Source of the DNA: Methanococcus vannielii SB
Lineage (GTDB): Archaea > AGJL01 > Methanococci > Methanococcales > Methanococcaceae
Direction of reading: 5' to 3'
Length of the DNA: 64,000 nt
Assembly (NCBI RefSeq): GCF_000017165.1
Contig: NC_009634.1
Span: 1,534,552 to 1,598,551, forward strand
A program made the position numbers and the translations under genes. Every line of letters begins with the position of its first letter. Position 1 is the first letter of the stretch. Below, in pieces: positions 19,595-23,467 of this stretch. The notes beneath the pieces were generated by a model. It did not search any database. It saw only the letters and a program-made list of their open reading frames with translations, and was not told the DNA's origin.

Positions 19595-19787
19595 TAGTTT
19601 ATTTCCTTTTAAATGGTTTTTCAAACATTTTAAAGATATTTTGGATAATTTATGTTAATTTTTAAATTATGATTAAAAAACATTTATATTTGATTTATAT
19701 GCTGAAAATAATAAATTAATAATAACCAAAAAATAATTTGGAAAATTTAATAAAACTAAAACTTAAACTTTTCCATTGGTGGTAACT

Positions 19788-20753
19788 ATGACTAACGAAC
19801 CTATCGGACTATGGCGAATAATTTGGAAATTTACAAAATTTTCAGAGAATTATTTTGCAGTATTGGTAGTTTTAGGTTCGATTGCTGGTTTTTTGCATCC
19901 TCCAATATTCTCTTGGGCAATGCCCTACATAAGTCTTTTTTTAGGGATTATCATGTTTGGAATGGGAATGACACTTAAAGTTAGTGATTTTGAAGCTATT
20001 TTAGAAAGGCCAATTGACGTAGTGTTTGGTACGCTACTCCAATTTACATTAATGCCCATTTTAGCGTTAGTAGTCTCTTATCTATTAAGTTTACCTCCTG
20101 AAATTGCAATAGGAGTAATTCTCCTTGGTGCATGTCCCGGTGGAACTGCTTCAAACGTTATAACTTATTTGGCAAAAGGGGACGTTGCACTTTCAGTTGC
20201 AATAACTAGTTTTTCAACCCTTATTGCCCCACTTTTAACACCACTAATTGTACTATGGTCGGCGGGACATTGGATAAACGTATCTACAATATCCATTTTC
20301 GTTTCAATCGTTCAAATAGTTGCTATTCCGGTATTCATGGGAATTTTTATAAATAACCTCCTTGGAAAAAAAATCGACCATATTAGGCAGATTTTACCTT
20401 TAATTTCCGTTTTTGCAATTGTAATAATAGTGGGGGCCATAATTGGTGCAAATGCTGAAAAAATAGTTTTTTCAGGAATAGTTGTGATTTTGGCAGTTAT
20501 TATTCACAATATACTTGGCCTTTTACTAGGGTATACAATATCAAAAATGGCTAAAATTGACGAAAAAAAGGTTAGAGCAATTTCAATAGAAGTGGGAGTT
20601 CAAAATTCGGGATTAGCCGTAGCTCTTGCAACAATTCATTTTTCACCACTTGCAGCGGTTCCGGGTGCATTATTTAGCGTCTGGCACAATATTACTGGGC
20701 CAATTTTAGCTAATTACTGGTCAAAAAAAGATAAAAAGGATAAGTATGTTTAA
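19788..20753 (+). CDS. BASS-family sodium:organic acid symporter
   Basis: The 321-residue membrane protein has about nine to ten hydrophobic segments and the bile acid:sodium symporter (BASS) family signatures GMTLKVSDFEAIL, GVILLGACPGGTASNVITYL and EVGVQNSGLAVALA. Members import bile acids, pyruvate, pantothenate or other organic anions with sodium, and the substrate here is unknown. GGTGGT before the ATG at 19788 fixes the start. Its 3' end abuts the duplicated ilvN segment: the duplicated unit begins 19 bases after its stop. Confidence 0.85.
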   Translation: MTNEPIGLWRIIWKFTKFSENYFAVLVVLGSIAGFLHPPIFSWAMPYISLFLGIIMFGMGMTLKVSDFEAILERPIDVVFGTLLQFTLMPILALVVSYLLSLPPEIAIGVILLGACPGGTASNVITYLAKGDVALSVAITSFSTLIAPLLTPLIVLWSAGHWINVSTISIFVSIVQIVAIPVFMGIFINNLLGKKIDHIRQILPLISVFAIVIIVGAIIGANAEKIVFSGIVVILAVIIHNILGLLLGYTISKMAKIDEKKVRAISIEVGVQNSGLAVALATIHFSPLAAVPGALFSVWHNITGPILANYWSKKDKKDKYV

Positions 20754-20771
20754 TATCTACATTTGTTTAAT

Positions 20772-21114
20772 CTACGTTTTAAGTTACTTTAAGCCATATA
20801 CTGTAATGTAGTAATATTTAAATATTAAATAATGAGTTATGCCTTATTTGATTTTAATATTTTAGAACCCCTCATAAGTGCCGTTAAACCTGTTCTTGCA
20901 ATTTCTTTTATGCCCATTGGCCTTACAAGGTCTAAAAATGCGTTTACTTTTTGTTCATCCCCTGTGATTTCAACAGTAAGTGTTTCAGTACTTAAATCAA
21001 TAATTTTTCCACGAAATATATTTACATACTGGATTACTTGGGATTTACTGTCTTCGGTTGGCGCATAAACTTTTACAAGGCAGAGTTCTCTTTGAACAGA
21101 TTTACTACTGTTTA
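20772..21114. repeat. First copy of a 343-bp tandem duplication
   Basis: This segment is repeated directly at 21115-21457 with no difference that I can find. It contains part of the BASS-ilvN spacer and the 3' end of ilvN. Both ends lie beside a TGTTTA word (20764-20769 and 21109-21114), suggesting microhomology-mediated duplication. Confidence 0.9.
20837..21114 (-). pseudogene. Truncated duplicate of ilvN
   Basis: These 278 bases are identical to the last 92 codons of the intact ilvN at 21180-21689. The frame is closed three codons beyond the junction by a TAA at 21124-21122, and it has no suitable start codon. It therefore encodes nothing useful. The intact gene's stop and 3' flank are preserved in the second copy. 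Confidence 0.9.
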
Positions 21115-21457
21115 CTACGTTTTAAGTTACTTTAAGCCATATACTGTAATGTAGTAATATTTAAATATTAAATAATGAGTTATGCCTTATTTGATTTTAA
21201 TATTTTAGAACCCCTCATAAGTGCCGTTAAACCTGTTCTTGCAATTTCTTTTATGCCCATTGGCCTTACAAGGTCTAAAAATGCGTTTACTTTTTGTTCA
21301 TCCCCTGTGATTTCAACAGTAAGTGTTTCAGTACTTAAATCAATAATTTTTCCACGAAATATATTTACATACTGGATTACTTGGGATTTACTGTCTTCGG
21401 TTGGCGCATAAACTTTTACAAGGCAGAGTTCTCTTTGAACAGATTTACTACTGTTTA
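21115..21457. repeat. Second copy of the 343-bp tandem duplication
   Basis: Direct repeat of 20772-21114. This copy continues into the intact 5' part of ilvN on the right, so it is the original ilvN 3' end. Its left part duplicates the spacer downstream of the BASS gene. Confidence 0.9.
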
Positions 21458-21689
21458 AATCAGTTACTTTTACAACTTCAACAAGTTTATTCAACTGTTT
21501 TATTACCTGTTCAAGTACATTATCGTCTCCATTTACTACGATAGTCATTCTTGCAATTTCTGGATTTTCAGTGCTTCCAACAGTAATGCTTGATATATTA
21601 AACCATCTTCTTGTAAATAATCCTGAAATTCTTTGGAGTACTCCTGGCCTATGTAGTACTAAGACCGAAATAATATGTTTGTGTTCCAT
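21180..21689 (-). CDS. ilvN: Acetolactate synthase, small regulatory subunit
   Basis: The 169-residue protein has an N-terminal ACT domain ([21 protein letters not shown], then [11 protein letters not shown]) and the C-terminal regulatory half seen in full-length IlvN/IlvH. It confers branched-chain amino acid feedback on the catalytic subunit IlvB and stimulates it. It lies 14 bp downstream of ilvB and is clearly co-transcribed. Its last 92 codons and 3' flank are part of a tandem duplication, but the gene itself is complete. The duplication leaves a second, dead 3' end and moves the natural terminator region further away. Confidence 0.95.
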
Positions 21690-21703
21690 TGGAAATCACC
21701 TGA

Positions 21704-23467
21704 TTAGACCTTTAAATTAAGAATTTTTTTCATGTCATTAAAGCAAGTGGGCTTTGGAGTAGGTTCCTGTCTTTCAGGGAATAATATGTTTGTCATGGTT
21801 CCTCCTGGTGGCACCATGTGGAGAGCTTCTGTTGGATCAATAATAATATCTAATAAATAAGGTTTTCCGCTTTTTAAGGCAGTTTTAAATGATTCTTTAA
21901 TATCTTCAGGACTTTCGATTCTTAATGCATCAACACCATAGCTTTCTGCAAGTTTTACAAAGTCAGGAGTATTTCCTAAATGAACTGCACACTGTCTTTT
22001 CCCATAGTATAGATTTTGCCACTGATAAACCATTCCAAGGGTTCTGTTATCAAATATCGCTATAACAATCGGGATTTGGTATTCTGAAATAGTTGCAAGT
22101 TCTTGTGAATTCATTAAAAATCCACCATCTCCGGTAACTGAAATAACACTTGCATCAGGCCTAGCTATTTTTGCACCAATTGCTGAAGGAAAACCAAAAC
22201 CCATTGTACCCTGCCCACCTGACGATATAAACGATTTTGGAGCACTTGACTGGAAGTAATGTGCCATCCACATCTGGTTCTGCCCAACATCTGTTGTAAT
22301 AATCGTATTTTTTAATGAAGGGTCTAATTCCCTTAATGCAAGCATCATTTCTTTAATGAGTCTTTGCGGTTTTACGGGCTTATTATCAAAGTCCATGATT
22401 GGAAGGGATTCTTTTTGAAGTTTTTTAACGTTTTCCATCCATTCATTTTTATTTATTGGCTGTTTTTTCAATATATGGGTTAAAATATCTTTTAAAATTG
22501 CTTTTGCATCCCCTACGATTGGGATATCCACTCTTACGTTTTTTCCAATTTCTGCAGGGTCTATATCTATATGTATTATTTTTGCATGGGGTGCAAAAGA
22601 GGATAAGTCTCCAGTAATCCGGTCTGAAAATCTACAGCCAATTGCAATTAAAACGTCACTTTCATAGACTGAATAGTTTGATGCTTTTGTCCCATGCATT
22701 CCAACTAATCCAAGCGCTAAAGGATGTTCTTCAGGAAACGCCCCTTTACCCATTAATGTCGTACATACGGGAATTTTTACAAATTCGGATAATTTTATAA
22801 GTTCTAAGCTTGCATTAGCAATTTGAACTCCCCCTCCAGCAATAATTACTGGCCTTTTAGAATTCTGAATTATTTCAACTGCTTTTTTAATCTGCAAAGG
22901 ATGTCCAAAAGTTGTTGGTTTATATCCTTGTAAATTTATGTCTGCAGGAATAGGGTATTTTTCTAAATCCAACTCACTATCCTGTACATCTTTTGGTAAG
23001 TCGATATGAACCGCACCTGGTCGCCCAGTTTTTGCAATTTCAAAAGCCTTCCTAAATATCTTAGGAATTTCGCTAGTATCTTGAATCTGAAAGTTATGCT
23101 TTGTAATTTGCATAAAAATTCCAAGTGCATCAATTTCCTGAAATGCATCATTTCCTATTAATCTGGTCGGAACTTGCCCGGTTAATGCGACAACTGGTGA
23201 AGAATCTGCATGGGCCGTTGCAACTCCTGTAACAAGGTTTGTAGCTCCAGGTCCCGATGTAGCCACACATACTCCAACGTCACCACTCGCTCTTGCATAT
23301 CCATCGGCTGCATGGGCTGCGGCCTGTTCATGTCTTGTTAAAATATGTACAAAATCTGTGTGGTATAGTGCATCATAAAAGGGAAGTAACTGACCTCCTG
23401 GATATCCAAAGAGGACTTTTACATTTTCCGCTTTTAGGGCTTTCATCATAGCCTCTGCTCCTTTCAT
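21704..23467 (-). CDS. ilvB: Acetolactate synthase, large catalytic subunit
   Basis: The 587-residue thiamine-diphosphate enzyme condenses pyruvate with pyruvate or 2-oxobutyrate, the first committed step to valine, leucine and isoleucine. Domains run in the usual order: Pyr domain with the catalytic Glu in the THVLTRHEQAA-like HILTRHEQAAAHAADGYARA segment, a central FAD-binding domain, then the PP domain with the ThDP/Mg motif GDGGFLMNSQELATISEYQI. GGTGAT before the ATG at 23467 supports the start. With ilvN 14 bp downstream it forms the ilvBN operon. A TATA-rich spacer separates it from the divergent carbamoyltransferase operon. Confidence 0.96.
   Translation of the reverse strand: MKGAEAMMKALKAENVKVLFGYPGGQLLPFYDALYHTDFVHILTRHEQAAAHAADGYARASGDVGVCVATSGPGATNLVTGVATAHADSSPVVALTGQVPTRLIGNDAFQEIDALGIFMQITKHNFQIQDTSEIPKIFRKAFEIAKTGRPGAVHIDLPKDVQDSELDLEKYPIPADINLQGYKPTTFGHPLQIKKAVEIIQNSKRPVIIAGGGVQIANASLELIKLSEFVKIPVCTTLMGKGAFPEEHPLALGLVGMHGTKASNYSVYESDVLIAIGCRFSDRITGDLSSFAPHAKIIHIDIDPAEIGKNVRVDIPIVGDAKAILKDILTHILKKQPINKNEWMENVKKLQKESLPIMDFDNKPVKPQRLIKEMMLALRELDPSLKNTIITTDVGQNQMWMAHYFQSSAPKSFISSGGQGTMGFGFPSAIGAKIARPDASVISVTGDGGFLMNSQELATISEYQIPIVIAIFDNRTLGMVYQWQNLYYGKRQCAVHLGNTPDFVKLAESYGVDALRIESPEDIKESFKTALKSGKPYLLDIIIDPTEALHMVPPGGTMTNILFPERQEPTPKPTCFNDMKKILNLKV

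Follow-up and report, generated by a model that had tools for sequence, protein, structure and literature searches.

The window analysed here, the whole 64-kb stretch of DNA taken from the Methanococcus vannielii SB chromosome (hereafter the source genome), contains an acetolactate synthase locus convergent with a transporter gene. The 3' part of ilvN is present twice, in two adjacent units of 343 bp, and the features involved are the following:

21704 to 23467, minus strand: ilvB, acetolactate synthase large subunit, upstream of ilvN, with three TPP-enzyme domains
21180 to 21689, minus strand: ilvN, acetolactate synthase small subunit of 169 aa, intact, with ACT and ALS_ss_C domains and full-length similarity to relatives
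21115 to 21457, no strand assigned: copy 2 of the 343-bp unit, an exact match to copy 1, supplying the intact ilvN 3' end and a 65-bp downstream flank
20772 to 21114, no strand assigned: copy 1 of the 343-bp unit, the copy on the BASS side, an exact match to copy 2, containing a dead ilvN fragment
20837 to 21114, minus strand: ilvN 3' remnant in copy 1 (last 91 codons plus stop) with a complete ALS_ss_C domain, recognised by its reading frame and by Pfam PF10369 at residues 8-82
19776 to 20753, plus strand: BASS/SBF-family transporter gene (PF01758), convergent with ilvN

Direct comparison of 20772-21114 with 21115-21457 reveals equality at 343/343 bases, and Tandem Repeats Finder describes 20772-21457 as a repeat of period 343, with 2.0 copies, 100% matches and no indels. 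The match stops sharply at both edges, with no matching base to the left of the start of copy 1, so that the run is exactly 343. Each unit comprises 278 bases from the 3' end of ilvN (the stop and the 91 codons before it) and 65 bases of downstream flank. With 343 identical bases, chance is not an issue as an explanation. Thus, the two adjacent identical units reported in a preliminary description of this DNA were recovered as such, and sequence differences between the copies, which that description had regarded as a sign of an old event, amounted to 0 in 343 bp. When the whole genome (one contig of 1,720,048 bases, 99.96% complete) was searched, the DNA of the unit matched only its own locus.

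The ilvN product, with its ACT (5-75) and ALS_ss_C (86-160) domains, is 93-95% identical over its full length to the proteins of three genomes of the same genus, which bears out the proposal that the second unit keeps the gene intact. This integrity needs no special explanation, since a tandem duplication with a single intragenic breakpoint always spares a whole gene copy. The frame of the remnant, for its part, enters from an in-frame stop, and no ATG, GTG or TTG is found before the conserved part of ALS_ss_C; moreover, the list of open reading frames holds none of at least 40 aa on the minus strand of copy 1. The first unit had been described as a dead ilvN 3' end, and it is indeed a dead fragment, because it has no usable start codon after the in-frame stop. 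Judging from its sequence, the remnant is not expected to be translated, though the whole ALS_ss_C domain is present. A functional second ilvN or ALS_ss_C gene was therefore discarded, given the lack of a start codon ahead of the domain and of any listed frame of that length. As regards RNA elements, no Rfam family at the gathering threshold and no tRNA were detected in the 64-kb window.

One of the two breakpoints falls within ilvN, where the linker joins the ACT and C-terminal domains, and the other in the short spacer separating ilvN from the BASS gene. The same six-base word, TGTTTA, accompanies the three boundaries:

20764 to 20769, plus strand: TGTTTA near the left boundary, 2 bp (AT) short of the unit start
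21109 to 21119, plus strand: novel central junction TGTTTA/CTACG, with TGTTTA at 21109-21114
21452 to 21457, plus strand: TGTTTA at the right boundary, inside ilvN codons, located by sequence

The left boundary reads TTTGTTTAAT followed by CTACG, the central one CTACTGTTTA followed by CTACG, and the right one CTACTGTTTA followed by AATCAG. In strict terms, the junction overlap is 0 bases (blunt), with an extra AT separating the left TGTTTA from the unit. Thus, the earlier statement that TGTTTA is shared at both junctions holds in that each of the three boundaries has the word close by, but at the left it is 2 bp off and not flush. When random pairs of breakpoints 343 bp apart were drawn in the window, a shared word of at least 6 bases within 2 bases of the breakpoints appeared in 1.2% of trials (P 0.012), and this coincidence modestly favours a TGTTTA-guided event with loss of AT over homology-free joining. 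The same word is also present in TGTTTAATATCTAC, from 20749, where two AT units come after it. The number of ATs between TGTTTA and CTAC is therefore two at 20749, one at 20764 and none at 21109, a variation which suggests that local AT slippage may have taken place at the breakpoint. No IS-like or terminal inverted ends were seen at the borders of the 343-bp unit. A mobile-element insertion was ruled out on account of this lack of inverted ends and of any other copy of the unit in the genome.

In a search of 41 genomes, ilvN was found in 36, the source genome (G000) included, and the 35 relatives carry one copy. A partial second ilvN match (76-169 of 169) exists only in G000 among the 41, the sole other second match being a weak one (26%) in G010. 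Allowing up to two mismatches, the central junction was detected in 1/22 family genomes, that of the source, and was absent from the other 21. The ilvN part of the unit (278 bp) is 87.4, 85.6 and ~85% identical to its counterparts in the three nearest genomes, all of the same genus (~13-15% different), while the 0 differences in 343 bp place the divergence between the copies below ~0.9% (95% Poisson bound). Comparison of this bound with the difference between species indicates that the duplication would be much younger than those splits, unless the copies have been homogenised by gene conversion. Together, the copies without differences and a junction present in 0/21 other family genomes favour a lineage-specific and hence recent event, one of the two origins (the other being an assembly artefact) proposed earlier for such perfect copies. 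The ilvN-BASS spacer does not align with those of relatives and is too divergent for reconstruction of the ancestral breakpoint, other species having insertions in it. In the same-genus genomes (L003-L005), several hundred bases to ~1.3 kb of unrelated sequence occupy this position; L003 has unrelated sequence next to ilvN, with no BASS match in the 1.5 kb examined. The titles and abstracts listed in a literature search contain nothing on this locus, and nothing relevant was found on tandem duplication in the source species.

The scan for perfect tandem repeats covered 1.264 Mb of the source genome (the 64-kb window and sixty 20-kb stretches), and short-unit and many-copy arrays were left out of the tally of clean two-copy duplications. 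One other clean perfect case was found there, and one was found in a 364-kb sample of a genome of the same genus, G004:

G000:C1:443442-443948 (= L157:3442-3948): 253-bp duplication with 1-bp overlap that takes in the 5' part of an HTH/ACT regulator gene together with its upstream flank
L139:5029-6088 of G004: perfect tandem duplication of 525 bp within a surface-protein gene rich in repeats, with 10 bp of overlap at the junction

No clean two-copy duplication of at least 100 bp was found in G001, G008 and G011 (400 kb each). Thus, clean short tandem duplications are rare but not unique. The 253-bp duplication resembles that of ilvN in being perfect, two-copy, almost blunt (1 bp) and absent from relatives of the genus, as well as in consisting of an intact gene and a dead fragment; the regulator gene stays whole with an 87-codon open fragment upstream, which occurs only in the source genome among seven of the genus. 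It differs in that its gene is duplicated at the 5' end, along with the flank upstream, and not at the 3' end, and in having no shared junction word. The 525-bp duplication is likewise a perfect tandem on the scale of hundreds of bases, from a genome of the same genus; however, it has a 10-bp overlap, and the surface-protein gene in which it lies is rich in repeats, which are expected to recombine with one another. A separate 76-bp duplication occurs near it, at L139:9522. In the source genome, about 11 near-identical 98-bp units are located directly 3' of the gene for an S-layer-like protein of 567 aa (L169:2275-3440, about G000:C1:1402275-1403440); they bear GAAAGGGCTACGCCCCTTTC-type hairpins, and their borders vary between ATT and TTC. 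Since the 1.26 Mb examined here yielded two clean perfect cases, the 1.2 Mb sampled from three relatives none, and a fourth relative one of longer overlap, it could be thought that the source lineage repeatedly makes short (250-350 bp), nearly blunt duplications through an end-joining or template-switch process uncommon in its neighbours, although we regard this as very unlikely.

The duplication changes the surroundings in which transcription of these genes would end. From the ilvN stop (21180) to the BASS stop (20753) there are now 426 bp, compared with 83 bp for a single unit, so that the distance, previously said to be doubled, has in fact grown about five-fold. No hairpin terminator was found in 20600-21800, as expected in an archaeon. 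The 343-bp unit has several T4-5 runs in the BASS sense, which are consequently doubled between BASS and ilvN. In this sense, the nearest T4 pair (20852, 20860) is unaltered by the duplication, and a second set now precedes the real ilvN. In the ilvN sense, a single T5 lies inside the remnant, 241 nt from the ilvN stop, and the nearest paired runs are further away:

20723 to 20737, minus strand (ilvN sense): candidate ilvN terminator formed by T5 and T7 runs inside the BASS 3' end, proposed from the list of T-runs and the U4 rule of M. maripaludis

This pair is 442-450 nt from the ilvN stop at present; without the extra unit, the distance would be 99-107 nt. Termination in M. maripaludis relies on aCPSF1 and on U4 tracts, of which a pair works best (PMC8716108). 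By analogy with that species, the ilvBN 3' UTR is predicted to be lengthened, and read-through from BASS into ilvN would, if anything, be less.

With respect to stability, it had been suggested that the duplication should be unstable by recombination. This is a general expectation only, and marked instability does not follow from it, since short duplications in Pseudomonas aeruginosa (2.6-3.3 kb) are lost very slowly, with half-lives of thousands of generations and loss that rose with length (PMC12607827). The organism differs from Pseudomonas aeruginosa, but by analogy the 343-bp duplication may be quite persistent.

The explanation that we consider very likely is a single, recent, spontaneous 343-bp tandem duplication in the source lineage, generated by template switching or end joining. 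We infer that the copies were probably joined while the DNA was being replicated or a break repaired; template switching around the 6-base word TGTTTA, with two bases lost on the way, is one possible route, and end joining that needs little homology is the other. Having only one genic breakpoint, such an event would have left ilvN whole and the other copy as an untranslated 3' remnant, its main likely consequence being a longer ilvBN 3' UTR and an increased number of terminator-like U-tracts in the BASS-ilvN interval. It is an ordinary recent mutation, or just possibly an assembly error, and not a new kind of element. Like the short-junction duplications of bacteria, it consists of a head-to-tail pair with a novel junction, little or no end homology and no mobile-element ends; in contrast with them, its unit is only 343 bp, its host is an archaeon, its mechanism is inferred, and it is known only from one assembly. 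A strictly blunt junction is also what a false assembly join would be expected to produce, and this counts against the proposed duplication. There is, indeed, a small chance that two contig or read ends sharing 343 bp were placed one after the other when they should have been merged, which would account for the perfect identity as well as for the bluntness, and the same assembly contains the 253-bp case, also perfect and, with its 1-bp overlap, nearly blunt. However, the genome was assembled as a single 1.72-Mb contig at 99.96% completeness, just one other clean case appeared in the 1.26 Mb sampled, arbitrary read ends would be unlikely to place TGTTTA at the breakpoints (P 0.012), and a long Sanger read can reach across the 686-bp repeat.

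Identity between the copies could also have been maintained by gene conversion, between the two units or among many chromosome copies, in an older duplication, which is a further point against a recent origin. The related M. maripaludis is highly polyploid, with up to ~55 genome copies per cell (PMC9430280), and this would favour such a process; nevertheless, the junction is in no other family genome, which makes the event at least younger than the split from the sequenced neighbours, and we judge an older, homogenised duplication highly improbable. As for a selected feature, in which the second unit would act as an insulating 3' region or terminator or as the source of a free ALS_ss_C domain, the position of the breakpoint in the linker between ACT (5-75) and ALS_ss_C (86-160), which makes the remnant a whole domain, and the doubling of the T4-5 runs in the BASS sense might be argued in its favour. 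Nonetheless, no start codon follows the in-frame stop ahead of the domain, the arrangement is conserved in no relative, and a one-unit layout would already give BASS identical nearest U-tracts, so this idea is hardly credible. The recent spontaneous duplication is probably neutral, and a selective role for it is unlikely.

From a practical point of view, annotation of the copy 1 segment should call it an ilvN remnant or a pseudogene fragment, and not a second subunit gene. If real, the duplication would provide a clean natural mark for the rate of gain and loss of short tandem duplications in a highly polyploid archaeal genus, as well as a natural test of the effect that a longer 3' UTR has on ilvBN.
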